Of a DNA stretch of 64,000 nucleotides, positions 5,205 to 43,914 are shown piece after piece. The position numbers were made by a program, and so were the translations under genes. The notes beneath the pieces are model-generated. The model saw only the letters and a list, made by a program, of their open reading frames with translations. It did no database searches and had not been told where the DNA came from. The stretch comes from a bacterium 1XD8-76 (GTDB lineage Bacteria; Bacillota; Clostridia; Lachnospirales; Lachnospiraceae): positions 310,001-374,000 of the forward strand of contig RAZE01000001.1 in assembly GCA_003611955.1 (NCBI GenBank), given 5' to 3'. Every line of letters starts with the position of its first letter. Position 1 is the first letter of the stretch.

Positions 5205-5256
5205 AGCTGTATTCCTTCCTACTTTCAAGATGCTCTTCTCTTAAGTTTTGTTTAAA

Positions 5257-6051
5257 TTATTTTATTCTTTTTTCACTATTTTGTATCATAGTTGTATCGT
5301 TCGCTCCGGAAACGGAATAATTTTCTAAAAATTTAATCCATTCTTCCTCCGAACCGTAAAAAACGTTGAGGTCAATATGCTCCTCCTCCCCGCTGTAACC
5401 CCGGAGCGTTGCCTCGCTGTCATACTGCCAGAAAGTCCATTTCCCGGGCATTCCCATATTCGGCGAAAAGTACACATTGCGGATCCAGAGCGGATACCCG
5501 TCAAAGGCCCCTCTGATGTAAGTACTGTAGGAACTCTCCGTGGCGTAGATCAGAGGTTTTACGCCGTAGTGCTCCTCCAGTTTATCCAGAAGGCTCTGCA
5601 GCTGTCGCCTCGTCTCCGCCACATCCGGCTTATTGTAGAAACGGTTTCCGTAAAATTCAATATCAACCACGGGCGAGAGCATTCCCTCTTCCCTCGGTAC
5701 AATGGAAATAAAATGCTCCGCCTGCGCTTCCCCCTCGCTCTCAAAGCTGAAAAAATGGTAAGCGCCCCTCTTCAGGTCTGTCTTTCCGGAATTCTCCCAG
5801 TTTTCCTGAAATTTTATATCGATATGACTGCTGCCTTCCGTCGCTTTGATAAAAGCAAAATCGATCCCCTCCCCCTCGAGAATCTCCCAGTCGATCTCTC
5901 CCTGATAATAAGAGACATCCACACCGCGGATCGGATAGTCTGTCTCTGACGGATGATTTATTGTGATCTTTTTCTGATATATCAGTACTCCAAACAACAC
6001 GACGTCCAGCAGCAGAAAGACTGCCGCCCCTATCCACAGTTTTTTCTTCAT
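5257..6051 (-). CDS. GH25 family lysozyme (muramidase), membrane anchored
   Basis: Predicted to hydrolyse the beta-1,4 bond between MurNAc and GlcNAc in peptidoglycan. The 264 residues start with a signal anchor (MKKKLWIGAAVFLLLDVV, membrane helix about 5-25), then one GH25 TIM-barrel domain. Catalytic features are VDVSYYQG (Asp at about 45), AFIKATEG (about 67-73) and the acidic pair in PVVDIEFYG (Asp130, Glu132). No cleavage motif or cell-wall-binding repeat is visible, so the enzyme is probably tethered with its catalytic domain outside. It precedes the ECF sigma and anti-sigma genes on the same strand. The ribosome site is weak (GGAGAATGTGAG). Confidence 0.88.
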   Translation of the reverse strand: MKKKLWIGAAVFLLLDVVLFGVLIYQKKITINHPSETDYPIRGVDVSYYQGEIDWEILEGEGIDFAFIKATEGSSHIDIKFQENWENSGKTDLKRGAYHFFSFESEGEAQAEHFISIVPREEGMLSPVVDIEFYGNRFYNKPDVAETRRQLQSLLDKLEEHYGVKPLIYATESSYSTYIRGAFDGYPLWIRNVYFSPNMGMPGKWTFWQYDSEATLRGYSGEEEHIDLNVFYGSEEEWIKFLENYSVSGANDTTMIQNSEKRIK

Positions 6052-6094
6052 CGTTTCTCACATTCTCCACACAGGCTTTTACACTTTCTCTACC

Positions 6095-6123
6095 ATAGTA
6101 TATGATAATCCGCTGAAACTCAA
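6095..6123 (-). promoter_or_regulatory. Promoter of the lysozyme/sigma operon
   Basis: Minus-strand TTGAGT, 17 bases, TACTAT, about 45 bases upstream of the lysozyme start. Confidence 0.45.
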
Positions 6124-6142
6124 TCCTTACACCTGTTTTTTA

Positions 6143-6182
6143 ATAAAAAAAACAGCATGGATGGAAGTCCCCCCACGCTGCC
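6143..6182 (-). terminator. Terminator after the antiporter gene
   Basis: On the minus strand a GCAGCGTGG/CCATGCTGT stem is followed by a run of T residues, 20-60 bases beyond the antiporter stop codon. Confidence 0.75.
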
Positions 6183-6200
6183 TTCTTTTCTCTGTAAATT

Positions 6201-7505
6201 CTATTCCGCCGGAGCGAACCTGGATCTGTCCTGCCCTTCCGGTCTCGGTGTGATCTCTCCCGCCTTTGTCAGCGAGATCTTTGTAAGCGTTGGGCCAAGG
6301 AGCTCATAGATCAGCACCGCAAACAGTACGATATTTCGGATGATCGCTCCCTCCTCCCCCAGTTCCTGGGCAACCGTGACCGACATGCCGAGCGCCACAC
6401 CCGCCTGAGGCAGAAGAGTAATTCCCAGATATTTGCAGACCTGAGGATCACATTTCATAGCCTTTGAACTGACAGAAGCACCTATATATTTCCCGGCGGA
6501 GCGGGTGATAATATAGACCACGCCTATCGCCACCACCGTCAGGTTGGAGAACACGCTCAGATCCAGCTCCGCTCCGCTGAGCACAAAGAATACCACAAAG
6601 AGCGGTGCCGTCCACTTATCCACACGATCCATAATATCCGCGGAAAAATCGCAGATATTGCAAAAGACCGTACCCAGCATCATACAAACCAGAAGACTGG
6701 AAAATCCCAGCTCGATCTCCGTCCCCGGAATCTCCATTCTCACCATCGAGAGCGCCACCGTAAACAGCACAAAGGTGATGGAAATGCCCATACGCCTTGT
6801 GTTGGAGTGGAACCATTTCTCCAGCATGGCAAAAATAACACCCATTGCAAACCCCAGCAGAAGCGATCCGAACACTTCCAGCATGGGATTTACAAGCACT
6901 GTGATCACGCTGATGGCGGCTCCGGAGTAAATCGCTTTCGCCACCCCGAAGGACACCGCAAACACCACCAGGCCCACCGCGTCATCCAGCGCCACGATCG
7001 GCAGCAGGATGCTGGTGAGAGGGCCCTTCGCCTTATATTGGTTGACGACCATCAATGTTGCCGCCGGAGCTGTCGCTGTTGCGATCGCGCCCAGACAGAT
7101 ACAGGTGGATATCCCGATACTGCTGCCGAGATCAAATATGTAATACATCGCAATAAGACTCACATCCACCAGCACCGTCGCCGCAAGCGCCTGTACCACC
7201 GCCACGACCGTCGCCTGTCTTCCGGTCTTTTTCAATTCCGCCAGCCGGAACTCGTTTCCGATGGAAAAGGCGATAAAGCCGAGCGCCACATCCGAGAGGA
7301 TCCCAAAATTTTCCACATCCTCAAAGGTGCGGAATCCGATCCCGAATCTCCCGATCAGGCTCGGACCGATCAAAAGTCCCGCTATCAGATAAGCCGTTAC
7401 CGCAGGGATTCCGAAATTTCTCAGCGCACGGGTCAGCATCAACCCGAGAAACATCGCAAACCCCAGCATCAAAAGCAGTGTCGCTGTTTCTGAAATCTGT
7501 ATCAT
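6201..7505 (-). CDS. CPA2-family cation:proton antiporter
   Basis: An integral membrane protein of 434 residues with about 12 hydrophobic segments and a Na+/H+ exchanger-type core. Signatures are the N-terminal LMLGFAMFLGLMLTRALRNF, AYLIAGLLIGPSLIG, the acidic transport-site region LPIVALDDAVGLVVFA (adjacent Asp residues expected in the ion-binding unwound helices) and the late ITLLPQAGVALGMSV. No C-terminal TrkA-N or universal-stress domain is present, so it is shorter than KefB/KefC types. The ion (Na+ or K+) cannot be told from sequence. It appears monocistronic, with its own strong promoter and terminator. Confidence 0.88.
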   Translation of the reverse strand: MIQISETATLLLMLGFAMFLGLMLTRALRNFGIPAVTAYLIAGLLIGPSLIGRFGIGFRTFEDVENFGILSDVALGFIAFSIGNEFRLAELKKTGRQATVVAVVQALAATVLVDVSLIAMYYIFDLGSSIGISTCICLGAIATATAPAATLMVVNQYKAKGPLTSILLPIVALDDAVGLVVFAVSFGVAKAIYSGAAISVITVLVNPMLEVFGSLLLGFAMGVIFAMLEKWFHSNTRRMGISITFVLFTVALSMVRMEIPGTEIELGFSSLLVCMMLGTVFCNICDFSADIMDRVDKWTAPLFVVFFVLSGAELDLSVFSNLTVVAIGVVYIITRSAGKYIGASVSSKAMKCDPQVCKYLGITLLPQAGVALGMSVTVAQELGEEGAIIRNIVLFAVLIYELLGPTLTKISLTKAGEITPRPEGQDRSRFAPAE

Positions 7506-7550
7506 CTTCTGCCTCCACTGGTCATTGTATTTTAATTTTTGACCTTACTT

Positions 7551-7579
7551 ATAATACTCTTCTCTTTTTTAAGTGTCAA
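7551..7579 (-). promoter_or_regulatory. Strong sigma-A promoter of the antiporter gene
   Basis: Minus-strand TTGACA, 17 bases, TATTAT, about 45 bases upstream of the antiporter start. A separate inverted repeat CTTAGCC/GGCTAAG lies at 7608-7624 just after the nrdG stop and may help end nrdG transcripts. Confidence 0.65.
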
Positions 7580-7627
7580 CAATTTTGTGTTCAGCTTTTA
7601 TGTCTTAGCCAACACAGGGCTAAGGTA

Positions 7628-8167
7628 TTAAAAAGCTTCCTCCATTCCGTCTGTCCACAAAACTGCTTTACCCTCCCGCAGGGATTCCTGCACGCAGATG
7701 ATCCTCTGGTTTGAGGAGCCACGGAAGCGAAGCCCCATTTCTTTTAATTCCTGCACAAATTCCCCATCCACAAGCACATCAAGATAGGACAGCAGTTCCT
7801 TCGTCTCCTGGTGTTCCGCGCACATTCTCCCAAGCACATCCGTCTCAAATGTATAACCCGTATAACACCAGATATCCTTTTCGGGAAGTTCTTTTCTCAC
7901 CCGGCGCACAAACGGCAAAAGCCCCTGCTGATTGCTGTACTCCAAAGGCTCTCCCCCCAGCAGCGTCAGCCCCTTTACATAGGCGGGCCGCAGGGCGTTT
8001 ATCAGGTCATTCCCGGTCTCCGCCGTAAACGGCTTCCCGTAATGAAAATCCCACGTCTCCTCGTTAAAACAGTTTTGACATCTGTGTGTGCACCCGCTGA
8101 CAAACAACGTCACTCTGACCCCCGGCCCATTGGCAATATCACAGGTCTTAATTTCCGCATAATGCAT
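7628..8167 (-). CDS. nrdG: Anaerobic ribonucleotide reductase activating protein NrdG
   Basis: A radical-SAM activase that installs the glycyl radical on NrdD under anaerobic conditions. The 179-residue protein carries the cluster motif CTHRCQNC (CxxxCxxC), preceded by GPGVRVTLFVSG, and later LLGGEPLEY, the GGE motif that binds S-adenosylmethionine. The ATG at 8167 (MHYAEIKTCDIANGPG) follows a GGGGGGAT ribosome site; an upstream ATG at 8206 would add 13 residues not typical of the family. It lies downstream of nrdD on the same strand, separated by nearly 300 bases that hold a large inverted-repeat structure. Confidence 0.95.
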   Translation of the reverse strand: MHYAEIKTCDIANGPGVRVTLFVSGCTHRCQNCFNEETWDFHYGKPFTAETGNDLINALRPAYVKGLTLLGGEPLEYSNQQGLLPFVRRVRKELPEKDIWCYTGYTFETDVLGRMCAEHQETKELLSYLDVLVDGEFVQELKEMGLRFRGSSNQRIICVQESLREGKAVLWTDGMEEAF

Positions 8168-8277
8168 AACCATCCCCCCAATCCTTCTATGAATAAGTAC
8201 ATACACAACCTCATTCTATAACAAAAGCGCAAGAAAGCAAACCCGTTTCCCGCGCCTTTATTTTTAAATTTATAAAT

Positions 8278-8476
8278 CTGCATCTTTAACTCATTTCGCC
8301 AACAGCCAACTCAAAATGATCTGATATTCCAAAAGGAGTCCCTTGAAAAACGTCGGCACTTGGCGAGGTCTTTTCGAGCCTGGTGTCCGCTACGTTTTTC
8401 ACGGAGCGAGAGCGCGGCGACGCTGGAATATCAGATCATTTTAAGTGTCTCTTCGCCAATATTTTTAAAGATGCAG
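8278..8476. repeat. Nested inverted-repeat element between nrdD and nrdG
   Basis: Three nested pairs of perfect inverted arms share one centre: CTGCATCTTTAA (8278-8289) with 8465-8476, AAAATGATCTGATATTCCA (8313-8331) with 8424-8442, and TGAAAAACGT (8344-8353) with 8392-8401. The middle adds an imperfect hairpin (GGCACTTGGC with GCCTGGTGTC). A direct repeat TTCGCCAA (8295-8302 and 8452-8459) also flanks the 19-base arms. The outer right arm overlaps the last codons and stop of nrdD. It fills most of the 297 bases between nrdG and nrdD. It could be a folded RNA controlling nrdG expression or a dispersed MITE-like repeat. Confidence 0.75.
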
Positions 8477-10666
8477 CACTCTCTCCTTGATCTCCTGCGT
8501 CCTGCCCTGATTCCAGTACTGGGTTCCGATATAACCGCAGGTTCTTCTCGCCACGTTCATCTTATCCTGATCCCTGTTCCCACAGTTGGGGCATTCCCAG
8601 ATCAGTTTGCCGTGTTTATCCGTAATGATCTGAATTTCTCCGGTATAGCCGCACTTCTGGCAGTAATCGCATTTTGTGTTCAGCTCCGCATACATGATAT
8701 TATCATAAATATACTGCATCACGGTCAGCACCGCCTCCAGATTGTCCTGCATGTTGGGCACTTCCACATAGCTAATCGCACCGCCCGGGGAGAGCGCCTG
8801 GAACTGCGCCTCAAATTTCAGCTTTTCAAAAGCGTTAATTTCCTCCGTCACATGCACATGGTAGCTGTTCGTGATATAGTTCTTGTCCGTCACGCCGGTG
8901 ATAACACCGAACCGTTTCTGCAATGCCTTCGCAAATTTATAGGTGGTGGACTCCAACGGCGTTCCGTACAGGCTGAAATCAATATTGGATTCCTCTTTCC
9001 ACTTTTTACATGCCGCATTGAGCTTTTCCATCACTTCCAGCGCAAAAGGCGTCGCCGTGGGATCCGTGTGGGAACGCCCCGTCATATAGCGTGTACATTC
9101 GCACAGTCCCGCATAACCCAGGGAAATAGTGGAATAGCCGTCGTACAGCAGTTTGTCTATCGTCTCTCCCTTTTTCAGCCTCGCCAGAGCCCCGTTCTGC
9201 CAGAGGATCGGCGCCACATCGGAGGGTGTTCCTTTCAGGCGTTCATGCCGGCACATCAGCGCCCTGTGACAGAGTGCCAGCCGCTCATCCATGATATTCC
9301 AGAACTTTTCCTTGTCGCCGCCCGAAGTACACGCGATATCTACCAGATTCAGCGTGACCACGCCCTGGTTGAACCTTCCGTAATATTTATGTCGGTTCGG
9401 ATCATAATTTCCCGCGTTTGCAAGGTTTCCGACGTTTTTATCCGTAAACCGGTCCGGCGTCAAAAAGCTTCTGCAGCCCATGCAGACGTATACATCACCC
9501 TTCAGCTCCAGCATTACCTTCTCGGAGATATAGTCAGGCACCATCCTCTTCGCCGTACATTTCGCGGCGAGTCTGGTCAGATACCAGTATTTGCTGTCCT
9601 CACGGATGTTGTCCTCCTCCAGAACATAGATCAGTTTCGGGAAAGCCGGGGTGATAAACACACCCTTCTCATTCTTAACGCCCTTGATCCGCTGGTTTAA
9701 CATCTCCTCGATGATCGACGCGAGGTCATCTCTCGTCTGCCCTTCCGGCACCTCGTCCAGATACATGAACACCGTGATGAACGGCGCCTGCCCGTTGGTG
9801 GTCATCAGAGTGATCACCTGATACTGGATCATCTGCACACCGCGGTTGATCTCCTCCTTCACGCGCATCTCCGCGATCTGGTTGATTTTCTCCTCATCCA
9901 TCGGAAGATCCGCCCGGTCAAACTCCAGCCTTACCTGCTTTCTGAGTTTCTCACGGCTCACCTGCACAAAAGGCGCAAGATGAGATAAAGAAATGCTCTG
10001 TCCGCCGTACTGGGAGCTGGCGATCTGGGCGATCGCCTGCGTCGCGATATTACATGCCGTGGAAAAGCTCTTCGGTTTGTCGATCATCGTCTCGCTGATC
10101 ACCGTGCTGTTCTGCAGCATGTCCTCCAAATTGACAAGACAGCAGTTGTGCATATGCTGCGCAAAATAATCCGCGTCGTGGAAATGAATAATACCCTTCT
10201 CATGGGCTTCCACGATATCCGCCGGCAGTAAAAACCGTTTTGTGATATCCTTGCTGACTTCCCCCGCCATATAGTCGCGCTGTACGCTGTTCACGGTCGG
10301 GTTCTTATTGGAGTTCTCCTGTTTTACCTCTTCGTTGCTGCACTCCAAAAGGCTTAATATCTGCTCGTCGGTGGAATTTGCCTTTCTGACAAGCGCTCTT
10401 CTGTAGCGATAGGTGATATAGCTTCTGGCCACAGTGAACGCGCGCTGGTTCATGATCTCGTTCTCCACCATATCCTGAATCTCCTCCACGGAGAGAGAGC
10501 GGTTCATCTTCTCGCACTGGCGGATCATATTGTCGGCGATCACATCGATCTGCCGGTCCGTCATTTTTTCGGTATCCACCACACTGTTGTTTGCTTTTCT
10601 GACTGCCGCAATAATCTTGGAAATATCATAGGCTACTTCCTGGCCGCTTCTTTTAATAATTTTCAT
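8465..10666 (-). CDS. nrdD: Anaerobic ribonucleoside-triphosphate reductase NrdD
   Basis: Class III reductase that converts ribonucleoside triphosphates to deoxy forms with a glycyl radical, needing NrdG for activation. The 733 residues begin with an ATP-cone allosteric domain (MKIIKRSGQEVAYDISKI, about 1-95), followed by the large barrel domain. Near the C-terminus are a four-cysteine zinc site (CDYCQKCGYTG and CPNCGNRD) and the radical motif RRTCGYIG, with Gly as the radical site. An AAGGAT ribosome site lies about 12 bases before the ATG. A promoter, an NrdR-like box and a structured leader lie upstream. It is the first gene of an nrdD-nrdG unit. Confidence 0.96.
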   Translation of the reverse strand: MKIIKRSGQEVAYDISKIIAAVRKANNSVVDTEKMTDRQIDVIADNMIRQCEKMNRSLSVEEIQDMVENEIMNQRAFTVARSYITYRYRRALVRKANSTDEQILSLLECSNEEVKQENSNKNPTVNSVQRDYMAGEVSKDITKRFLLPADIVEAHEKGIIHFHDADYFAQHMHNCCLVNLEDMLQNSTVISETMIDKPKSFSTACNIATQAIAQIASSQYGGQSISLSHLAPFVQVSREKLRKQVRLEFDRADLPMDEEKINQIAEMRVKEEINRGVQMIQYQVITLMTTNGQAPFITVFMYLDEVPEGQTRDDLASIIEEMLNQRIKGVKNEKGVFITPAFPKLIYVLEEDNIREDSKYWYLTRLAAKCTAKRMVPDYISEKVMLELKGDVYVCMGCRSFLTPDRFTDKNVGNLANAGNYDPNRHKYYGRFNQGVVTLNLVDIACTSGGDKEKFWNIMDERLALCHRALMCRHERLKGTPSDVAPILWQNGALARLKKGETIDKLLYDGYSTISLGYAGLCECTRYMTGRSHTDPTATPFALEVMEKLNAACKKWKEESNIDFSLYGTPLESTTYKFAKALQKRFGVITGVTDKNYITNSYHVHVTEEINAFEKLKFEAQFQALSPGGAISYVEVPNMQDNLEAVLTVMQYIYDNIMYAELNTKCDYCQKCGYTGEIQIITDKHGKLIWECPNCGNRDQDKMNVARRTCGYIGTQYWNQGRTQEIKERVLHL

Positions 10667-14861: not shown

Positions 14862-16376
14862 CTACTTTATTGCCGCCCGCATAACGGCCTCCTCCGACAT
14901 CTTGTCCCGGTCAAACTCCCCGGTGATTTTTCCGTTGCTGACGACAAGCACTCTGTCGCTGATCGCAAGCAATTCCGGCAGGTCCGAAGATACCATCACA
15001 ATAGAGATACCGCTCTCTACCAGTTCTCCCATCAGGGAATATATCTCTGCCTTGGCCCCCACGTCAACGCCTTTTGTCGGCTCATCCACAAACAGGATCT
15101 TCGGCGATTTCACCAGCCATTTTGACAGAACCACTTTCTGCTGATTTCCTCCGGAAAGCGTATTGACGATAGTATGGATCGACGGCGCCTTGATTCGCAG
15201 GCGGTCAAACATTACCTGGCTCCTGCTGTTTTCTTCCTTCGCATCGACAAAGGGCCCTTTCACCGGAAGTTCCTTCAGACTTGCCAGATACATATTGTCG
15301 CGGATGGACAGCATCCAGATAAAGCCGTTCAGCTTCCTCTCCTCCGTCACAAAGCCCAGCCCCGCCTTTATCGCGTCCGCCGGATTTTTGATCGTCGTCC
15401 TCTGGCCTTCTATGTATACTTCCTTCGTCACGCCCTTGAACAGCTGTCCGAACACCGCGCCCAGTATCTCGCTTCTGCCTGCTCCAACCAGTCCGCCGAT
15501 TCCCAGTATCTCCCCTCTGTTCAAATGGAACGTAACGTCGTCCACAATATTTTTTCCTTTCATAGTGGGATGCGGCACACTCAAATGTTCTACCCGCAAT
15601 ACTTCCTCTCCTATGGCGACTTTCGTCTTCGGATAGAGATTTTCTATCTTCCGGCCAACCATCTCCTCGATAAGCGTCTCTTCCTTCACCTGATCTGTCT
15701 CATGACAGCCGATCGTCTGTCCGTCGCGGAGCACCAGCACTCTGTCACAGATCCGGTAGATCTCCTCCATCTTATGAGAGATATAGATACAGGAGATACC
15801 CTTATCCCTGAGCTCTTTCAAAATGCCCATCAGCTGGTCCACCTCGCTGTTTGTCAGCGCGGAAGTCGGCTCATCCAGCACCAGTATCCTGGGATTTTTG
15901 ATGTAAGTCCGCATCAGCGCCAGCATCTGCATCTGCCCGCTGTTCAGCTTTGCCACTTTATCGGTGGGTTTTGCGTCGATTCCCACCCGCTCCAGTATGC
16001 TTTTCGTCCCCGCGTACAGACTCTTAAAATCTACGCGCTGACCCCTTCCGGGCAGATTCCCCAGATACAGATTCTCGGCTATGCTGGAGTGCAGCACCAT
16101 ATTGATCTCCTGGTAGATCATCTCGATCCCATACTTCTGGGCAACGGCCACATCCGTGAGCTGAATGGTCTTTCCCTCGTACAGAATCTCCCCCTCATAT
16201 GTGCCGAACGGGTAAGTTCCGCTCAATATTTTCATCAGTGTGGATTTTCCGGCTCCATTCTCCCCGCAGACACCCAGTATTTCCCCTTTCTTCAGCTGCA
16301 GCATAACCTTATTCAACGCCAGAACGCCGGGAAACTTTTTGGTGACATTTTTCATTTCCAATAAATATTCCGCCAT
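14862..16376 (-). CDS. Sugar ABC transporter, duplicated ATP-binding subunit
   Basis: Energises import of the sugar bound by the neighbouring lipoprotein. The 504 residues contain two ABC domains as in RbsA, MglA and XylG. The first has Walker A GENGAGKST (about 37-45), an LNSGQMQ signature and Walker B RILVLDEPTSAL. The second has a degenerate Walker A GLVGAGRSE, signature LSGGNQQKV and Walker B ILFVDEPTKGVDVG. The degenerate second site is normal for this family. It lies 15 bases after the permease gene and is best placed in the monosaccharide (xylose/galactose-type) group. Confidence 0.93.
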   Translation of the reverse strand: MAEYLLEMKNVTKKFPGVLALNKVMLQLKKGEILGVCGENGAGKSTLMKILSGTYPFGTYEGEILYEGKTIQLTDVAVAQKYGIEMIYQEINMVLHSSIAENLYLGNLPGRGQRVDFKSLYAGTKSILERVGIDAKPTDKVAKLNSGQMQMLALMRTYIKNPRILVLDEPTSALTNSEVDQLMGILKELRDKGISCIYISHKMEEIYRICDRVLVLRDGQTIGCHETDQVKEETLIEEMVGRKIENLYPKTKVAIGEEVLRVEHLSVPHPTMKGKNIVDDVTFHLNRGEILGIGGLVGAGRSEILGAVFGQLFKGVTKEVYIEGQRTTIKNPADAIKAGLGFVTEERKLNGFIWMLSIRDNMYLASLKELPVKGPFVDAKEENSRSQVMFDRLRIKAPSIHTIVNTLSGGNQQKVVLSKWLVKSPKILFVDEPTKGVDVGAKAEIYSLMGELVESGISIVMVSSDLPELLAISDRVLVVSNGKITGEFDRDKMSEEAVMRAAIK

Positions 16377-34439: not shown

Positions 34440-35825
34440 TTAATTGTAATTTTCATTTTGTATCAGTGCACTTTCCTTATTCAATAAAAATGGTCGACAA
34501 AAAGCTGTCGCCGCACTGGTTGGAATAATTTCTTCAGATATTCTGATTCCAAGCACTTCTTTCATATATTTTTGTCTCTTTTGAATCCTTTTCCACATCG
34601 CTGGATATTTTTCCTGAATCTCCTGTCGAAGTTCTTCATCTGCTAACATAATTCCACTTTCGCAACTAATTCCTGCATATCCCGGCACAGATGGAATAAT
34701 ATCTATTTGAAACAGCATCCCGCTTTTTAACTTTTCTTGGGATTCCGGACAAACAGGACTACATAGCCACTCTTCCTCTGCACAAAGATGCCCCGGATTT
34801 AATTTCCAATGATACTTTTCTTTCGGAAGTACTTCTTCTATTAAGTTATATAAATCCTTTCCAGTCATGCCGATCCTGATTTTCTCAAGCCAGGCAACAA
34901 TTGCTTTATAATAAGGAATTGCCACTTTTTCCAAATAATCCCTCTGTCCTTCCGGTAATTCTTCAGCAACAGAAACCGCATAACCACTTCTGCTCTGTAA
35001 CCCACCTCGAAAGCCAGTTGTAATAGAAATGGAATCTCCTCTTTTAATTTTATTATAGGAAGGATACATATTTGCTTTTACAAAACGAGGGCCAGAAGCC
35101 ATAATTGTAACTACACTGTGCCTCTGTCCTCCGGCAGAAAGGTAAGAAGCAACTTCCATTTCTGTCATTCCCTCCTGAATGGCAGCCATAGCTTCCAAAA
35201 TACAATTTCCAGCGAGCGCTGCTCCAAACTCATAATGAGCAAATTCATCTGCATCATTCGTCTTACGCACGCCATCCTCTCCAATAAATAAATCTATGGC
35301 ATTTATAAATTCCGCATGAGGCGCCGCTTTTTTCAATGCCTCAACCAGATAACTCGGCAAATCAAACATTTTTCCGTTTTCTTCAACTGAGGAAGTAAAC
35401 TTTTTCCATCCCGCCAAACCAATAGTTTTTTTATCTTTTATACATATCTGTCCCAAAATTTGTGATACACTTTTTTTTGTCTGCATAGGTTGATCAGGCA
35501 ATGAAAAATGAGGCAGACATATGGCAGATGCTGAAATTCTTGCCTTTTCAGCTTTATTATAATTTTCATTTCCCAACACTAAAAATGCTTTGCCATCTGC
35601 ATGTAAAACCAACAAAGCTTCTTCAAACCTGGGCAAAAATCCAATAAGATATTCAAAATTTCCTCCATGTTCCAGATCGGCATATATTATCAGTGTATCC
35701 AAACCCATAGATTCCATTTTCCTTAAAACTTTCTTTTTTCTTTTTATTATCGTTTCATCAGGCAGCGCTATTGGAAAAATATCTGCCTCCCTTTCCGGCA
35801 ATATAACTTTTTTAAGTTTTATCAT
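34440..35825 (-). CDS. M24-family (pita-bread fold) protein lacking first metal ligands
   Basis: A 461-residue protein with an N-terminal creatinase/prolidase domain (about 1-185) and a C-terminal M24 pita-bread domain. Active M24 peptidases use Asp, Asp, His, Glu, Glu as metal ligands. Aligned here, the first Asp becomes Thr (GDSISITTG, about 263-271), the second becomes Val or Ser (SGYAVSV, about 280-286), His is kept (LNPGH, 346), the first Glu is Asp (FQIDIIPS, 375) and the last Glu is kept (CESG, 389). This pattern resembles metal-free creatinase more than an aminopeptidase. It is the last gene of an ABC operon. Function unknown. Confidence 0.78.
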   Translation of the reverse strand: MIKLKKVILPEREADIFPIALPDETIIKRKKKVLRKMESMGLDTLIIYADLEHGGNFEYLIGFLPRFEEALLVLHADGKAFLVLGNENYNKAEKARISASAICLPHFSLPDQPMQTKKSVSQILGQICIKDKKTIGLAGWKKFTSSVEENGKMFDLPSYLVEALKKAAPHAEFINAIDLFIGEDGVRKTNDADEFAHYEFGAALAGNCILEAMAAIQEGMTEMEVASYLSAGGQRHSVVTIMASGPRFVKANMYPSYNKIKRGDSISITTGFRGGLQSRSGYAVSVAEELPEGQRDYLEKVAIPYYKAIVAWLEKIRIGMTGKDLYNLIEEVLPKEKYHWKLNPGHLCAEEEWLCSPVCPESQEKLKSGMLFQIDIIPSVPGYAGISCESGIMLADEELRQEIQEKYPAMWKRIQKRQKYMKEVLGIRISEEIIPTSAATAFCRPFLLNKESALIQNENYN

Positions 35826-35840: not shown

Positions 35841-36782
35841 TTATTTATGTAGTACCTGCAGACAGGCACCTGTGATACCAGCATCATTTCCCAGCTGTGC
35901 AATTACAATATCCGCACCCTTTTCGATTAAATGAAGTTTTTCACTGTATGCTTTTTGTATGATCGGTAAAATTAATTCTGAGGATCTGGATACTCCACCG
36001 CCAATAACAAATGCTTCCGGATCAAATGCATGTGTAAACTCTGCCATAGCATGTCCCAAATTTCCCATACATATTTCAAGACATTTTATACAAAGTTTAT
36101 CTCCCTGTCCAGCTAATCCGCATATCTCCTTTGCAGTAAAATTTTTTATATTCTGCAACGGGGACTCTGTTTTCCTTTCTTTCGTCAGCCGGTTTGCAAT
36201 ACGTACCAGGCCATTTGCAGATGCAAACTGATCAAGGCAGCCATGATTACCACAATTACAGGCATCTGACTCCCCCGGGTCTACAGTTATATGTCCTATT
36301 TCCCCTGCAATTCCATTTGCACCGAGCAGAACATTTCCATTTAATATAATGCCTCCTCCTACCCCAGTGCCAAGTGTAATCAGCATCATACTGCTATATT
36401 TTTTTCCTCCTCCAGCATAATACTCTCCTAAAGCTGCCACATTTGCATCATTCCCTGCTTCAACAGTGACACCTGGAAATTCCTGTCGCAGAATTTCAAC
36501 CGGATTAAAATCATACCAATGAAGATTTACACTTTTTTTCACATATCCATTCTTGTCTACAGGTCCCGGAATTCCCATTCCAATTCCGCTTATCTCTGTA
36601 CTATCAATTTTTTTCCTTTTGCAAAAATCCCTAATTTCTTCCGCAACCTGCGGAATAATACGATTACCTGCTTCTGTCAGATCTGTATCTGCTATCCACT
36701 TTTCAAGCAGTATACCTTCTTTAGAAAAATGACCGAATTTAATCTGTGTTCCACCGACATCCACCCCAAAATATAATCCCAT
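35841..36782 (-). CDS. ROK-family sugar kinase
   Basis: An ATP-dependent sugar kinase of 313 residues of the glucokinase/N-acetylhexosamine kinase type. It has the phosphate motif GVDVGGTQIKFGHF near the N-terminus, the sugar-binding EAGNDANVAALGE, ITLGTGVGGGIIL, and the zinc motif in GEIGHITVDPG followed by CNCGNHGCLDQ, the ROK CxCGxxGCxE signature with Asp in the last place. The ribosome site is GAGGAG. It lies 15 bases before the M24-family gene in the A+T-rich operon, so it probably phosphorylates a sugar released from the imported compound. Confidence 0.9.
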   Translation of the reverse strand: MGLYFGVDVGGTQIKFGHFSKEGILLEKWIADTDLTEAGNRIIPQVAEEIRDFCKRKKIDSTEISGIGMGIPGPVDKNGYVKKSVNLHWYDFNPVEILRQEFPGVTVEAGNDANVAALGEYYAGGGKKYSSMMLITLGTGVGGGIILNGNVLLGANGIAGEIGHITVDPGESDACNCGNHGCLDQFASANGLVRIANRLTKERKTESPLQNIKNFTAKEICGLAGQGDKLCIKCLEICMGNLGHAMAEFTHAFDPEAFVIGGGVSRSSELILPIIQKAYSEKLHLIEKGADIVIAQLGNDAGITGACLQVLHK

Positions 36783-36878: not shown

Positions 36879-37775
36879 CTATAAATTATAAAGCCTTGCC
36901 GCATTATCATGTAATATACCGTTAATTTCTTTTTCCGTAAACTCAGGCCATCCTGATCCCCTGCATATTTTATTCATACCATTTTGAACCAGATCAATCC
37001 ATTTCAGTAAATCCTGAGTTGGATTAGAGCCAAATAAATCATTATCAGCAGCTACAAAATCTGATGCAAACATTACACGATCCAAAACTCCAAGTTCTTT
37101 GGCCATAACCATATTCCATGTCATCCAAACAGGCCGTTTATATAGCATAGCCAGATCGGTCCACAGATTTTCATCATTAACCATCATTGTAAATAAATAC
37201 TCGCTAAATGGATAGCCTATATGTTCTACAACTATCTTCATATCAGGAAAATCAAATGTTACATCATTCAAATTCTCCATTTTAGCATATTTTGTATGAG
37301 CTAACACTGTAGGTCCCCCGGCTGCGGAATGATGATATTGAACTACAATACCCTGCTTATTTGCAAATTCATAAAAAGGATACATACTCCTGTCATTGGA
37401 ATTAAACTGTCCATATGGCGGAGTAAAAAGAATTCCTTTATATCCACAATTTACAATCTTATCTACTACATAATCATAGTTTTTCTGAGAAAAACGGCCA
37501 GCCGCATCAATGGGCTCCACGCTGCAAAAAGGAATAAAAAAATCTGGATAGGCTTTATAAGCCTTTTCTACTGCAATCTCACCAAATTCAGAATGCCATA
37601 TTCTGTGCATATCCTGTGCCATGCTAACACAATGCTCTATGCCTGCCGCTTTCATCCAGCCTACCAGTTGATGAATATCCGTATCATTTGGAATACTCTG
37701 ACCTAAATCATCATAAGTAGGTTTATCAAAACATTTAGAATTTATCAAATGCATATGTGAATCAATAACTGCCAT
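36879..37775 (-). CDS. TIM-barrel amidohydrolase (amidohydrolase_2 type)
   Basis: A metal-dependent hydrolase or decarboxylase of 298 residues. The N-terminal HxH motif is MAVIDSHMHLINS; further ligands are probably His in YHHSAAGG and HIGYPF and the catalytic Asp in VMFASDFVAADN near the end. This family includes lactonases, decarboxylases and amide hydrolases, so the reaction is open. I chose the ATG at 37775 because GGAGG lies 7 bases before it; the ATG at 37781 touches that site. It follows the binding-protein gene in the operon. Confidence 0.82.
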   Translation of the reverse strand: MAVIDSHMHLINSKCFDKPTYDDLGQSIPNDTDIHQLVGWMKAAGIEHCVSMAQDMHRIWHSEFGEIAVEKAYKAYPDFFIPFCSVEPIDAAGRFSQKNYDYVVDKIVNCGYKGILFTPPYGQFNSNDRSMYPFYEFANKQGIVVQYHHSAAGGPTVLAHTKYAKMENLNDVTFDFPDMKIVVEHIGYPFSEYLFTMMVNDENLWTDLAMLYKRPVWMTWNMVMAKELGVLDRVMFASDFVAADNDLFGSNPTQDLLKWIDLVQNGMNKICRGSGWPEFTEKEINGILHDNAARLYNL

Positions 37776-37819
37776 TTTCATGCCTCCGATAGTTTTTATG
37801 TATCACCCGCAGTATCTGT

Positions 37820-37879: not shown

Positions 37880-38923
37880 CTACTTATTAATATCGAAATC
37901 AGCCGCATTGTGTACTGTCAAAAGTTCCGGCTGCATCTCATAAATATCATCCGGTCCAGATCTCGTATAAGAACCATCAAAAATCTGTTCCATAAATTCT
38001 ACACATTTCCTGCCCATTTTTTCAGGAGACATTCCAGGAGATGCATACAATTTACAATTTTCCCCCTCCTCCTGCATAACAGCCTGTTGTTCAGGAGTCG
38101 CATCATAACCAATTACATATACATCATCTCTTCCGGCATCCTGGAGCGCATTATATGTTCCCATAACACATTCATTCCAGTACAGGAAAAAAGCATCTGC
38201 ATCCGGGTATGCTGTAATCATATCAGTAGCCCAGATATAACAACCATCTGTTGTTCTGTCCGTAGACCGATTTTTTACAATCGTCACATTCGGGTAATTT
38301 TCATCCATCCAATCACTAAACCCATTGACACGAAGGCCGCTGGATGCAATGGAAGGTTCTTCCTCAAATATAATAATACTTGCATCTTCTTTGCCCTCCA
38401 ATGCTTCCATACACATTTCTGCGGCCATCTGACCTCCTGCATAATCGTTATATCTCACTGATGCATCTGCACCGCCTTCTGAAGCCAGACAGTCAAAATC
38501 AACAATTGGAATACCTGCTTCATGCGCAAGAGCAACTGCATCATTTGCACCATCTGTATCAATAGCGGTATAAATAATGCCATCTACACCTTGTGTTACC
38601 AAATTCTCAATAATAGTATACATTTGTGCCCAATCGCCTTTTGGATCCATCACCACGCTGTCCCAGCCTCTTGCCTCAATTTCTTCTTCTGCTACAGCTG
38701 CAAGATCTGCTTCAAAAGCTTGCGCCATATCCCACGGAACAATACCTATCATCTTTTTATCTTCGGATGTTTCCTCTGCAGAAGCTGTTTCTTCTTCTTT
38801 TGCTACAGTATTTTCTTCCGTAGGAGTTGCTTCCTGCGGATCTGCATTTGAGCTGCCACAACCTATAAGCATAGTTGCCGTCATACAGCCAACTAAAAAA
38901 ATACTTAATAATTTCTTTTTCAT
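37880..38923 (-). CDS. ABC transporter substrate-binding lipoprotein (ribose type)
   Basis: A 347-residue type I periplasmic-binding lipoprotein. The signal ends with lipobox ATMLIGC, followed by an acidic tether (EENTVAKEEETASAEE) and the ligand domain, including IGIVPWDMAQAFEADLAAV, TAIDTDGANDAVALAHEAGI and DVYVIGYDATPEQQAV. The ligand is not known. It follows the permease gene, an order (ATPase, permease, binding protein) that differs from the operon at 11.6-18.5 kb. The ribosome site is AAAAGGAG. Confidence 0.9.
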   Translation of the reverse strand: MKKKLLSIFLVGCMTATMLIGCGSSNADPQEATPTEENTVAKEEETASAEETSEDKKMIGIVPWDMAQAFEADLAAVAEEEIEARGWDSVVMDPKGDWAQMYTIIENLVTQGVDGIIYTAIDTDGANDAVALAHEAGIPIVDFDCLASEGGADASVRYNDYAGGQMAAEMCMEALEGKEDASIIIFEEEPSIASSGLRVNGFSDWMDENYPNVTIVKNRSTDRTTDGCYIWATDMITAYPDADAFFLYWNECVMGTYNALQDAGRDDVYVIGYDATPEQQAVMQEEGENCKLYASPGMSPEKMGRKCVEFMEQIFDGSYTRSGPDDIYEMQPELLTVHNAADFDINK

Positions 38924-39012: not shown

Positions 39013-40029
39013 TTATTTTTTTCTTGCTATCGCCTTATTTGATATTTTATTAAACCATTGCGCATAAAATACAGCAATGATCATCAGAGCACCTCTTACC
39101 ACCAACTGCCAGTTAGAACCAATAAACATAAGATTCATACCATTTGTAATCATTCCCATCATCAAAGCTCCTAAAAATACTCCTATTGTCAATCCTTTTC
39201 CGCCTGACAGAGATACACCGCCTATTGCACATGCTGAAATTGCGATTGTGGCATAGCCGCTTGCAGCATTCGGAGTTGCTGATCCCACACGAGCAGTTGA
39301 GAGAATACCTGCAAGCGCAGAAAGTCCTGCTGCTATTACATAAGTAGAAAAACGTACCCTTTTTACATTAACTCCTGAATTATACGCCGCCTGATAATTG
39401 CCACCAGTAGCATAAATTTTCCTTCCATATGAAGTTTTTCCTAAAACAAGAGCCATTCCAACAAAAACAAGAATTAGTATCCATACTGATACAGAAACTC
39501 CAAACACAGTTCCAACACTCAAATTTTTAAATTCTGATGGCAGCTGCGTTACAGCCGTATTATCGCTAACAATATAAACTATACCTCTTACTGCAGTCTG
39601 CGTGCCTAATGTAACAATAAAAGGATCTATCTTTGTCCTAGAAACAATTATCCCGTTCACAATACCAACAATACAGCAAAGCAACACAGAAATAATAATC
39701 GCTGCACCAAGTCCTGTTTTTAATCCATACAGACCATCTGTCACCAATAAACCACATAATGTCCCTCCCAATGCACAGGTAGATTCAATGGAAAGGTCAA
39801 AAGTCCCATTTAGAACTGGAAACGCCAATACACAGGAAAGAATTCCATATACAACGATCTCTTTCAGAATATTTCCCATATTGCCAAGAGATAAGAATTT
39901 TCCACTATTACTTTGTACGATAATAGAATATACAATAATTAGACAGACCAATCCTACCAGTTCAAAATATTTTGACTGCATTAATTTGTTCCAAAAGTTT
40001 AACTCATCTTTGCTCTTTTTAGAACTCAT
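39013..40029 (-). CDS. ABC transporter permease (RbsC type)
   Basis: A 338-residue membrane protein with about 8-10 hydrophobic segments. Family features are GILSCVLAFPVLNGTFDLS, DPFIVTLGTQTAVRGIVYI, the cytoplasmic GRKIYATGGNYQAAYNSGV (coupling region) and ISACAIGGVSLSGGKG. The start has an excellent ACGGAGG ribosome site. It is the second gene of the A+T-rich operon, 37 bases after the ATPase gene. Confidence 0.92.
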   Translation of the reverse strand: MSSKKSKDELNFWNKLMQSKYFELVGLVCLIIVYSIIVQSNSGKFLSLGNMGNILKEIVVYGILSCVLAFPVLNGTFDLSIESTCALGGTLCGLLVTDGLYGLKTGLGAAIIISVLLCCIVGIVNGIIVSRTKIDPFIVTLGTQTAVRGIVYIVSDNTAVTQLPSEFKNLSVGTVFGVSVSVWILILVFVGMALVLGKTSYGRKIYATGGNYQAAYNSGVNVKRVRFSTYVIAAGLSALAGILSTARVGSATPNAASGYATIAISACAIGGVSLSGGKGLTIGVFLGALMMGMITNGMNLMFIGSNWQLVVRGALMIIAVFYAQWFNKISNKAIARKK

Positions 40030-40066: not shown

Positions 40067-41545
40067 TTAATGTGAAATTGCTAATTTCATAATAGCTTCT
40101 TCGCTTGCTTCTTCTATAGAAAGTTCTCCCGATAAATGTCCTTCATGCATTACCAGAATCCGATCGCTAATTCCCAACAATTCAGTCATCTCAGAAGAAA
40201 CCACAATAATTGACATACCTTCGCTTGCCAATTCGTTGATTATTTTATAAATCTCAGCCTTAGCACCCACATCAACCCCTCTGGTCGGCTCATCCAGCAA
40301 AAGTACTTTAGGTTCTGAAGCCAGGCATTTTCCTAAAACAACTTTCTGCTGATTACCTCCGCTGAGCATACGAACCATCATATTTCCTCCTGAACATCGT
40401 ATCTTCAACTTTTGAATATAATCATTACAAATCGTATTTTCTTTCCTTGCATTCATAAAATTAAGAACAGATAATTTTTTTAAAACACTGAGCACCATAT
40501 TTTGTAAGATAGACTGTTCTAAAATTAACCCCTGATCTTTACGGTCTTCTGGTACAAATGCAAATCCTCTTTTCAGCCCCTCCATGGGCGTCCTGTTCAT
40601 AATCTTTTTTCCCTCAAGTTTTATCTCACCGTTACAGTGATCCAATCCATAAATAGCTCTGAGAAGCTCAGTTCTTCCTGCTCCTACCAGTCCTCCTATA
40701 CCAAGTATTTCCCCTTTACGTAATTCAAAAGAAATATTATAAATATTATCATTGTCAAGATGATTCACCGTCATCAATACTTCTCCCTGACGGTTGGTTT
40801 TTTCAGGAAACTGCTGTGTGATCTGGCGTCCCACCATAAGCCTGACAATATCATCTACTGACAATTCAGAAACTTCTCCTTCTCCTGATACCTCCCCATC
40901 TCTTAGTACTTGTACCCTGTCCCCTACCGCATAAATATCTTCCATACGATGAGAAATTAAAATAACAGCTATTTTCTCTTCTCTCAATTGTCTGATGATT
41001 TTGTATAATGTCTCTGTTTCCTCTAGCGTTAATGCCGCTGTCGGCTCATCAAAAATAATTATAGATGCTTCATGAGAAAGTGCCTTTACAATTTCTATCA
41101 ACTGTCTGTGAGCAACACTATACTGCCTTACCAGTGAGTCCGGTTCAAATTTTATATTTAGACGTTCCATCAGCTTTAAAGTTCTACTGCGCAATGCTTT
41201 TTCATCAATAAAACCATTTTTAGTTTCATAACGCCCGATAAAAATATTTTCAGCTATAGACATATCCTCTATTTGCACTAACTCCTGATGTACCATGCTG
41301 ATTCCTAAATGTATAGCATCAATAGGTTTTGCAATATGAACTTGCTTTCCGTCAATGAATATCTCTCCTGATGTCGGTGTTTCTACCCCGGCAAGAATTT
41401 TCATCAATGTAGATTTACCTGCTCCATTCTCTCCGCAAAGACAGAGAACTTCTCCTTTTTTCAATGACAGGCTTACATCATTCAATGCATGGATTCCGCC
41501 ATAAACTTTGCTAATATGACTCATTTCCAAGATATAATCACTCAT
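40067..41545 (-). CDS. ABC transporter duplicated ATP-binding subunit (RbsA type)
   Basis: Two fused ABC domains in 492 residues. The first has GENGAGKST, SVAHRQLIEIVKAL as its degenerate signature region and IIFDEPTAAL; the second has GLVGAGRTE, LSGGNQQKVVLGKCL and LLLDEPTRGVDVG. It energises uptake by the following permease and binding protein. It is the first gene of the A+T-rich operon, and diverges from a LacI gene across a 344-base, very A+T-rich gap. The ribosome site is AAAGGAGGGG. Confidence 0.93.
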   Translation of the reverse strand: MSDYILEMSHISKVYGGIHALNDVSLSLKKGEVLCLCGENGAGKSTLMKILAGVETPTSGEIFIDGKQVHIAKPIDAIHLGISMVHQELVQIEDMSIAENIFIGRYETKNGFIDEKALRSRTLKLMERLNIKFEPDSLVRQYSVAHRQLIEIVKALSHEASIIIFDEPTAALTLEETETLYKIIRQLREEKIAVILISHRMEDIYAVGDRVQVLRDGEVSGEGEVSELSVDDIVRLMVGRQITQQFPEKTNRQGEVLMTVNHLDNDNIYNISFELRKGEILGIGGLVGAGRTELLRAIYGLDHCNGEIKLEGKKIMNRTPMEGLKRGFAFVPEDRKDQGLILEQSILQNMVLSVLKKLSVLNFMNARKENTICNDYIQKLKIRCSGGNMMVRMLSGGNQQKVVLGKCLASEPKVLLLDEPTRGVDVGAKAEIYKIINELASEGMSIIVVSSEMTELLGISDRILVMHEGHLSGELSIEEASEEAIMKLAISH

Positions 41546-41855: not shown

Positions 41856-41889
41856 TTATTATTGTCACAAATTTATTATGGAGGTAAAT

Positions 41890-42933
41890 ATGAAGAGAAA
41901 ACGCGTGACCCTAGATGATATTGCCGATAGAGCCTATGTTTCAAAATCACTTGTCTCTAAAGTGTTAAACAACCGTCCCGTAAGAGTTTCTGAAGAAAAA
42001 CGTTTAGAAATTCTTAATCTTGCGAATATGATGGACTATATACCCAGTGGAAAAATTTTACAAAATGATTCTATTCCCAAATTAAATAAAACAATCGCTC
42101 TGTTTTTACCACATCTTAACACAAATTTTATGATGACCCTCTGTGATACAATCACTCGAAAAGCCTATCGCAATGGCTATTCTGTCATTGTTTTTAACAG
42201 TATTGAAAATACTTCTCTAGAATTGAAATATATAGATCTATGTTATACTTTGAATGTATCAGGAATTATTTTTGATTCTTATTCCAATGCCAGCAATAAA
42301 AAATATCTGGAAAAGCTTGAGCAGAATCAGATTCCTTTTGTTTTTATAGACTGTTATCCCACCGATACATCCTATTCTTTTATTACTTCCGAAAATAAAA
42401 AAGCCATGAAGGAGCTCACAGAAAGTCTGATCCGACGTGGGCATAAAAATATACTCAGTTTTATTCAGAATAAATCTACTCTTACAAACGTTTCCATGCA
42501 AAGAATTGCTGGCTACTATGAAGCAATGAGTCAGTATAACCTCAGAGGAACCAATGAAATAATTTATCCTGAACGTGATTATCGACAGCAGCCTATTTAT
42601 TCTTTATTAGAATCTTCCGCAGAGTTTTCTGCTTTTATCATTCATACTGGAGATGATATCAAACACTTTTTTGATTTGATTTCTTACACAAAATATGCTC
42701 ACAGACAAAACTTTGAAGTAGCTGTATTCGATGACTTTGATCTTTCGTTTACCGAATACAGCTCTGGAACACATAAAGATATATGCCAAAAAATTGTCAG
42801 CATTATGGCACAGCGCCCGAAAGAAATTGCTGAACGGGCTCTGGATGTACTGTTTGGTCAGATTAAACAGCCTGATAATTTTCAACATATACAGGAATTT
42901 ATCGATTGTGATCTGATAGAAATCAATAATTAA
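41890..42933 (+). CDS. LacI-family regulator of the A+T-rich operon
   Basis: A 347-residue LacI/GalR-type protein. The DNA-binding helices read TLDDIADRAYVSKSLVSKVL with hinge DYIPSGKILQND; the sensor domain begins NKTIALFLPHLNTNFMMTLC. The ATG at 41890 follows a GGAGGT ribosome site. It diverges from the ABC operon and is followed 36 bases later by the arginase-like gene on the same strand, so both sides of the gap are probably one regulon. The sensor half is unusual in the lineup, and the effector is unknown. Confidence 0.88.
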   Translation: MKRKRVTLDDIADRAYVSKSLVSKVLNNRPVRVSEEKRLEILNLANMMDYIPSGKILQNDSIPKLNKTIALFLPHLNTNFMMTLCDTITRKAYRNGYSVIVFNSIENTSLELKYIDLCYTLNVSGIIFDSYSNASNKKYLEKLEQNQIPFVFIDCYPTDTSYSFITSENKKAMKELTESLIRRGHKNILSFIQNKSTLTNVSMQRIAGYYEAMSQYNLRGTNEIIYPERDYRQQPIYSLLESSAEFSAFIIHTGDDIKHFFDLISYTKYAHRQNFEVAVFDDFDLSFTEYSSGTHKDICQKIVSIMAQRPKEIAERALDVLFGQIKQPDNFQHIQEFIDCDLIEINN

Positions 42934-42969
42934 TTTATAAATATTTCTCAATTGGAGGTTAAACTCAAA

Positions 42970-43914
42970 ATGAACACAAAAAAAGTAAGCAAACTCAGCA
43001 TTATAGAAATACCCTATGGAGATTTAAATTGGGGACCAGACCCTGAACATATCAGACCCGGTATCTTTTCAGATATTCAGCACTGGAAAAAATATCGTGA
43101 ACTGGATGATTATCATCTATGTGGAATTTATGGAAAAGCAGGGGTTCCATATTCCGTGGAGGAGATTGTTTATCAGAAAGAGGAGGAGGAGGTTTATCTT
43201 ACACTGACAAAGCAGGTATCTGATGCCGTGTACCAGAGTGTGAAAAGCGGCGCGGCGTTGCTGCTGACAGGCGGCTATTGCAAGGATGCGGTTGCTGTGT
43301 GCGGCGGAATACAGCGGGCTGTCGGTACAGATAAAAGGGTTGGAATCATATATCTTGATGCCCACAGTGATATGTCAACTCCTGCGGTAACACATACAGG
43401 AATTCTTGGCGGGATGGATATGGCCTGTATTATGGGTGTTGATATGGAAGAGTGGCGGAAGGCTGCCGGTTTAGAGGTTCCGTTTGATGATAAACTTGTT
43501 TTACTGAGCGATTTCAGGGAAGCGGAAGTGGAAGATGACGGCGCTCTGGAAATTATTAAAAATTTGCAGATAAATTGGCTAAAATCAGAAGCCTTCGATA
43601 AAACAGAAGTGTGGGAGAAAGAAGTCCGGAAGCTGGCCGATCAGGCAGATGCGATATATCTCCACATCGATGCGGATATCCTGAATCATAAACATGTGCC
43701 GAATGCTGCATGTATGGCTTTAGGAGGACCTTCCATTCATACTCTGATGCACAATATCCGTATCATAATGGAAACAGGCAAAGTTCTTGTCTATGGTTCT
43801 TACGGATTTTATTTTGATACAAATATCCCTGGACAAGATTCTCTTACATTAAGCGGTCTGCGATCTGTATCCGCAGGACTGGAAAGTTGGAAAGAAATGC
43901 CAGACATTATTTAA
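42970..43914 (+). CDS. Arginase/ureohydrolase-family protein with altered metal motif
   Basis: A 314-residue protein of the arginase-agmatinase-formimidoylglutamase superfamily. Two of the three metal motifs are clear: DAHSD (130-134) and DAD in LHIDADILN (234-236). The first motif, normally GGDH, reads GGYC (101-104), so the usual His ligand is replaced by Cys. The start at 42970 has GGAGGT 10 bases upstream. The first 180 or so bases are A+T-rich like the LacI gene before it, and the rest is G+C-richer. It probably hydrolyses a C-N bond in a guanidino-, amidino- or formimino-like group, or has lost activity. Confidence 0.75.
   Translation: MNTKKVSKLSIIEIPYGDLNWGPDPEHIRPGIFSDIQHWKKYRELDDYHLCGIYGKAGVPYSVEEIVYQKEEEEVYLTLTKQVSDAVYQSVKSGAALLLTGGYCKDAVAVCGGIQRAVGTDKRVGIIYLDAHSDMSTPAVTHTGILGGMDMACIMGVDMEEWRKAAGLEVPFDDKLVLLSDFREAEVEDDGALEIIKNLQINWLKSEAFDKTEVWEKEVRKLADQADAIYLHIDADILNHKHVPNAACMALGGPSIHTLMHNIRIIMETGKVLVYGSYGFYFDTNIPGQDSLTLSGLRSVSAGLESWKEMPDII

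Follow-up and report, generated by a model that had tools for sequence, protein, structure and literature searches.

Judged by its sequence, the 461-amino-acid protein encoded on the (−) strand at positions 34440–35825 of the stretch of DNA analysed here (64,000 nucleotides, hereafter the window) belongs to a distinct and widespread subfamily of the M24 fold that has lost the Asp pair of the dimetal centre and may work without that centre. M24-fold enzymes without the metal-binding Asp pair are already known, EutD and creatinase being examples; what sets this subfamily apart is its own residue signature, together with a distinct module of sugar-related and hydrolase genes that holds the M24 gene in some of its members. 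The open reading frame begins with ATG and is preceded by a putative ribosome-binding site (AAAGGG, read by eye). Pfam places a Creatinase_N domain at residues 29–176 (28.2 bits, cut-off 22) and a Peptidase_M24 domain at residues 202–387 (50.7 bits, cut-off 23). NCBIfam yields nothing beyond a weak match with archaeal PepQ (34.7 bits; cut-off 630), and the nearest PDB sequence matches are prolidases. An AlphaFold2 model based on 58 aligned sequences (pLDDT 95.3, pTM 0.92) has the pita-bread fold with an N-terminal creatinase/prolidase domain as assessed with VIA-align, and Foldseek agrees.

Relatives were found in Bacillota, Enterobacterales, rhizobia and actinobacteria. Scanning a species-genome collection gave 390 pattern matches, 336 of which encode a relative, and the best 80 of these 336 were used; relatives are also present in 67 plasmid records, in eight of 299 genomes of the same taxonomic family (E up to 1e-20) and in two of 96 genomes of the order, the window's own genome being counted in both of these sets. 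No match was obtained in 5,426 Escherichia coli genomes by blastn with one Kluyvera gene (L086) as query. The alignment used throughout comprises 97 proteins, namely the window protein, those of 78 loci and 18 others, and leaves out L052 and L100, for which no ORF was kept, as well as L027, where the ORF is split; it includes closely related proteins, such as those of 10 Yersinia loci, while identity to the window protein falls as low as 28%. The relative from Breznakia pachnodae is 64% identical to the window protein, and the Breznakia operon includes an M81 gene; Oceanobacillus is another carrier. The excluded relative in L027 (8935–10345), from Rhizobium sp. T1470, is divided between two overlapping ORFs and is therefore frameshifted or misassembled. 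In a tree of 35 proteins the subfamily forms a clade with 100/100 support on a long stem (4.3), and its place among other M24 groups is unsure owing to the long branches. Two isolated observations concern individual relatives: one (L023, 8962–10374), which has Crp/Fnr and ribH genes upstream of it, is carried by an Enterococcus faecium plasmid classed as conjugative, and one ribose-type ABC locus (L123) carries two diverged subfamily copies at 7086–8540 and 14963–16351, whose identity to the window protein is 38% and 44%.

The five ligands of M24 metallopeptidases are D, D, H, E and E; the window protein does not have this full set, its corresponding residues being T, S (or a deletion), H, D and E. 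Both an alignment to Pyrococcus prolidase and a profile alignment to a canonical M24 protein (L113) put Thr269 in place of the first metal Asp, whereas the second metal Asp is matched by Ser280 when no gap is opened, or else is lost to a deletion, with Arg279 on the Arg that comes next. These residues lie in the hairpin that holds both Asp in canonical M24 proteins (codons 269–280, positions 34986–35021, (−) strand; strands 265–272 and 275–282 in the model). Further along the gene on the same strand are the codons of H346, the metal His (34788–34790, followed by E352-W353), of D375 at the place of the first Glu (34701–34703) and of E389, the last Glu (34659–34661). Across the 97 proteins position 269 is T in 91, A in four, C in one and S in one; position 279 is R in 96 and H in one; and position 280 is A in 45, T in 19, S in 16, G in 15 and V in two. 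H346, D375 and E389 are each present in 97/97. No Asp occurs at any of positions 265–284 in any of the 97 proteins and none has an insertion there, so that loss of the Asp pair does not depend on the exact register, and since the loss is common to all 97 it is a family trait and not a chance event. The original prediction that the Asp pair is gone, with the His and last Glu kept and the first Glu changed to Asp, therefore extends to the whole alignment, and none of the alignments tried restored Asp residues to the metal site. As for Thr269, its candidacy as a universal nucleophile was discarded because four of the 97 proteins have Ala at this position.

Conservation is equally strict in a subfamily-specific motif of the N-terminal domain, Y48-x-D50-x-E52-H53-xx-N56 followed by R66-F67-E68-E69 (codons 48–69, positions 35619–35684, (−) strand), in which Y48, D50, E52, H53, N56, F67, E68 and E69 are found in 97/97 and R66 in 96/97. 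N86, E87, Q112, K141, R187, E352, W353 and Q373 are likewise present in every protein, and 38 positions in all are invariant. Since one His and two carboxylates are fixed, a single metal might be held by H346, D375 and E389, which would make the protein a metalloenzyme after all; the title of one report calls the M24-fold DMSP lyase DddP a metalloenzyme (PMC4108388). We think this distinctly unlikely given that both metal Asp are gone and that the conserved Arg beside the site would be expected to repel a cation. Loss of the Asp pair would also fit a ligand-binding pseudoenzyme that serves the module as a sensor, chaperone or regulatory subunit. M24-fold non-enzymes exist, with Spt16 among the fold matches of the model, and the abstract of another report describes an Ebp1 homologue as a pseudoenzyme (PMC3888471). 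Arguing against such a role are the 38 fixed residues themselves, many of them polar or charged and retained in every protein down to the most divergent, and the LacI regulator that the window operon already has; on balance we consider it unlikely.

Prolidases (Xaa-Pro dipeptidases; 1wy2, 1pv9) are the best PDB matches of the window protein in both fold and sequence. In contrast to the window protein, with no Asp pair and with Asp in place of the first Glu, prolidase has both metal Asp and the first Glu. The Asp pair is missing from every family member examined, and, in line with the original prediction, aminopeptidase activity is unlikely for this protein. It had also been proposed that the protein resembles creatinase, and here the evidence divides. 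Structural alignment with creatinase and prolidase bears out a common M24 fold; in this model, however, the fold scores single out no creatinase kinship (VIA-align Z 30.2, rmsd 2.9 and 334 residues aligned for prolidase 1wy2; Z 28.2, rmsd 2.8 and 350 residues for EutD 6twj; Z 27.9, rmsd 2.8 and 352 residues for creatinase 1chm). The creatinase comparison used the sequence of 1chm (401 residues) together with 7yto, and the PDB search also returned 1kp0. Creatinase is like the window protein in fold, in its two-domain plan and in having no canonical metal Asp pair, and unlike it in the residues of its active site. In creatinase His232 is catalytic, and Glu262 and Glu358 also have roles of their own. 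His232 aligns with Asn252, a position which in the 97 proteins is N in 84, L in five, V in four, and R, E, T and G in one each, with no His (a His two residues earlier, at position 250, occurs in 7/97). Glu262 aligns with Gln277, where S is found in 67, Q in 19, T in five, E in three, A in two and C in one, and Glu358 aligns with Asp375.

Profile comparisons agree with the residues. Matches to the subfamily, made with profiles of only one to four sequences each so that only large gaps carry meaning, were 6.9% (E 0.005) for creatinase, 88.5% for one canonical M24 protein, 92.6% for the M24 protein encoded on plasmid pTi15955, 97.8% for EutD and its relatives, and 99.7% (E 7e-26) for three metal-less M24 proteins of the window's own genome. 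With His232 and Glu262 not conserved, Glu358 replaced by Asp and the weakest of the five profile matches, membership of the creatinase group was rejected, and the specific likeness to creatinase fails with it. The same residue and profile evidence weighs against a creatinase-like C–N hydrolase of a guanidino or ureido compound, a reading for which the common fold can be cited and to which two features of gene context, taken up below, also pertain.

EutD (DoeA; 6twj, 6twk) offers a closer parallel. A passage of one report places it in the M24 family and likens it to creatinase (PMC3187862), and part of another states that efficient ectoine degradation requires both EutD and the deacetylase EutE (PMC8739950). 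EutD shares the fold of the window protein and also lacks both metal Asp, having E and P in their places. The hydrolase that acts alongside EutD is EutE, a zinc enzyme, and the window operon has a candidate for such a partner in its Amidohydrolase-2 enzyme. Catalysis by EutD passes through a covalent intermediate, with a covalent role for one of its Glu residues. The differences are that Glu occupies the first metal place of EutD, where the window subfamily has Thr269, that EutD is without the metal His, which the window protein keeps as H346, and that the N-domain motifs differ. Membership of the EutD group was rejected, given the Thr269 and the absence of any TIGR02993 match for the window protein at E up to 0.001 (cut-off 613 bits; a true EutD, L110, scores 832).

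The best profile match of the subfamily is thus the metal-less M24 group of the window's own genome. This genome has eight M24 matches, of which MetAP (L001) and PepP (L002) keep the Asp pair and six do not. These six genes lie in four loci, each with a sugar-type ABC importer, three of the ribose type and one of the SBP_bac_1 type, which is often, though not always, for sugars; the comparison covers the contexts of the six genes without the pair. In L128 a tandem metal-less pair (5924–8327) lies between ribose-type ABC genes upstream and, downstream, genes for an FGGY kinase and a protein of the fucose-isomerase type; in L129 a second tandem pair (4296–6799) follows SBP_bac_1-type ABC genes; and in L130 a single gene (6228–7397) is preceded by a LacI gene and ABC genes of the ribose type and followed by FGGY, PfkB and aldolase genes. 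No M81, M20 or Amidohydrolase-2 gene was found among the scanned neighbours of these other loci. Three proteins of the genome (L003, L004 and L005) resemble the window protein in lacking the Asp pair, in keeping the His and last Glu, in having a related N-domain motif and in being encoded in ribose-type ABC loci. At the first-Glu position L004 and L005 have D, as does the window protein, while L003 has C; all three are only 22–24% identical to it and fall outside the subfamily clade.

Two other proteins, agropine synthase and mannopine cyclase, are described as M24-fold enzymes that act on sugar–amino acid conjugates. The M24 protein of pTi15955 (L116, 2542–3792) lies in an opine-catabolism stretch and is without the Asp pair, the metal His and the last Glu; its gene adjoins SIS-domain, fructoselysine 6-kinase-like and ABC genes and may encode mannopine cyclase or a related opine enzyme. 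Its likeness to the window subfamily lies in the absence of the Asp pair and in the profile match of 92.6% given above.

In the window the M24 gene lies in an operon on the (−) strand. From upstream to downstream this encodes a ribose/xylose-type ABC ATPase (40067–41545), a ribose/arabinose-type ABC permease (39013–40029) and a sugar-type ABC substrate-binding lipoprotein (Peripla_BP_4; 37880–38923), all three identified with Pfam and NCBIfam, then an Amidohydrolase-2 enzyme (PF04909 in Pfam; 36879–37781), the proposed partner hydrolase, and a ROK kinase of the glucokinase type (35841–36782; TIGR00744 at 260.9 bits against a cut-off of 260.35, with glucokinases as PDB matches), 15 bp after which the M24 gene starts. 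A divergent gene for a LacI-type regulator (41878–42933, (+) strand; Pfam, NCBIfam) is followed by one for an arginase/ureohydrolase-family protein (42952–43914, (+) strand; PF00491, 54.7 bits) with a DAHSD motif, whose link to the operon is possible and to the module uncertain. This neighbour favours the guanidino or ureido reading introduced above, as does the M20 gene beside five of 78 relatives, which in the one examined is of the allantoate/N-carbamoyl amidohydrolase type and would suit a ring-opened ureide. The arginase-like gene has no relative in eight related loci, however, and the window context points to sugar-type uptake and amidohydrolase partners over guanidino compounds. We regard a guanidino or ureido substrate as very improbable; of the prediction of a C–N hydrolase of this kind, a metal-free catabolic role remains reasonable and the guanidino chemistry is not favoured.

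Two lines of evidence suggest that the pairing of the M24 gene with a second hydrolase is real in part of the subfamily. First, neighbourhoods of relatives were compared. An M81 gene is present in 16 of 78 loci, in 15 of the 16 on the same strand within 3 kb and in nine within 30 bp of the M24 gene (P = 6e-12 for this closeness under uniform placement, with the relatedness of loci ignored); the representative scanned is MlrC-like (PF07364 and PF07171). Beta-glucoside-type PTS permease genes occur in 13/78 loci and GH1 genes in 12/78, only seven and four of them, respectively, being on the same strand within 3 kb. When the window is included, 30 of 98 loci carry a co-oriented M81, M20 or Amidohydrolase-2 gene no farther than 6 kb from the M24 gene. 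Genes for a sugar permease, a beta-glucoside PTS or GH1 are found over the same distance in 28 loci, made up of 19 of the 30 with a partner hydrolase and nine of the 68 others. Neither kind of gene is found within 6 kb in 59/98 loci; fewer than 6 kb were available on one side in 20 loci, and among PTS genes the count covers the beta-glucoside type, L062 having one of another type. In the 10 Yersinia loci the M24 gene lies between cation-efflux and ABC-F genes, with no partner or sugar gene. Among distant relatives, ribose-type ABC importers adjoin the M24 gene in L122–L125 and M81 accompanies it in L118, L120, L122 and L125; L124 has the same Amidohydrolase-2 enzyme as the window (50% identity) and L122 has the ROK gene (43%). 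On Agrobacterium and Pantoea vagans plasmids the M24 gene is found with carbohydrate ABC genes, a ROK regulator and M20 or M81. With 30 of 98 loci having a partner, 59 having neither kind of gene and the Yersinia loci bare, the sugar/hydrolase module is real in part of the subfamily and is not general.

Some loci have further peculiarities. L118 (8793–15564) contains a cluster of four M81 ORFs with a metal-less M24 gene, and at least two M81 copies are also present in some others, such as L030, L050 and L074. A gene for an AbrB-type membrane protein (PF05145), possibly an extra transporter of the module, lies near M81 and M24 in some loci (L074, 8828–9898; L050, 14411–15472).

Second, co-occurrence was assessed over whole genomes, with p values that ignore shared ancestry. 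Among the 299 genomes of the taxonomic family the M24 subfamily is present in eight, M81 in 16 and both in four (p = 3e-4). Two of the 299 encode the Amidohydrolase-2 enzyme (E up to 1e-20), and both are M24 carriers in which it lies 1.1 and 4.6 kb, respectively, from the M24 gene; since the query came from one of these two genomes, the independent case is a single genome among the other 298. One or other partner, M81 or the Amidohydrolase-2 enzyme, occurs in 18 of the 299 genomes and in six of the eight M24 carriers (p = 5e-7). With one carrier from another family added to these eight, five of the nine carriers have M81 (11 copies, eight of them within about 8 kb of the M24 gene), two others have the Amidohydrolase-2 enzyme without M81, and two (G033 and G063) have neither. 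In this search of the nine carriers no M81 was found in the window's own genome. The partner hydrolase thus seems to be exchangeable among M24 carriers. The many loci with neither partner nor sugar gene could be taken to mean that the role of the M24 protein is unconnected with the operon and its context incidental. M81 and the Amidohydrolase-2 enzyme nevertheless co-occur with the M24 gene and sit close to it, and with only eight carriers among 299 genomes of its taxonomic family the subfamily is scarcer than a housekeeping gene would be; we give an incidental context little credence.

Taken together, these observations lead us to favour, tentatively and at somewhat less than an even chance, a metal-independent enzyme of a sugar-conjugate catabolic module that has a metal amidohydrolase as partner, by analogy with EutD and EutE. 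The residue roles that follow rest on alignment. In creatinase, residues 62 and 64 of one subunit extend into the active site of its partner, and by likeness to them the N-domain motif of the subfamily may do the same, so that one subunit's motif and the other's R279, H346, D375 and E389 would form a pocket in the dimer. We infer that the protein acts as an enzyme, and its polar pocket might then accept a sugar-containing amide, lactam or lactone. The conserved Arg279 could supply the charge that the lost metals once provided, and H346, together with either D375 or E389, would serve as acid/base and open or cut an acyl C–N (or C–O) bond. The partner amidohydrolase would then cleave the product, and the ROK kinase or a PTS may phosphorylate the sugar part.

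More broadly, metal-free M24-fold proteins, among them this subfamily with its conserved Arg in the former metal site and the other metal-less groups encoded beside sugar-type importers in the window's own genome, could constitute a large unrecognised class of sugar-conjugate enzymes that use charged residues in place of metals to open lactams, lactones or amides and that, in this subfamily, have exchangeable M81, M20 or Amidohydrolase-2 partners; we regard this wider proposal as possible and somewhat doubtful. In the literature covered, which leaves out most subscription journals, we found nothing on this M24 subfamily or on its pairing with M81. Public records name relatives "aminopeptidase P family protein", "Xaa-Pro aminopeptidase" or "M24 family metallopeptidase", names which imply a metal and a peptide bond. 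Should the members prove to be metal-free enzymes of sugar-conjugate breakdown, the public peptidase names of the subfamily would be wrong, and the pairing with a second hydrolase in part of the subfamily makes their chemistry open to test.
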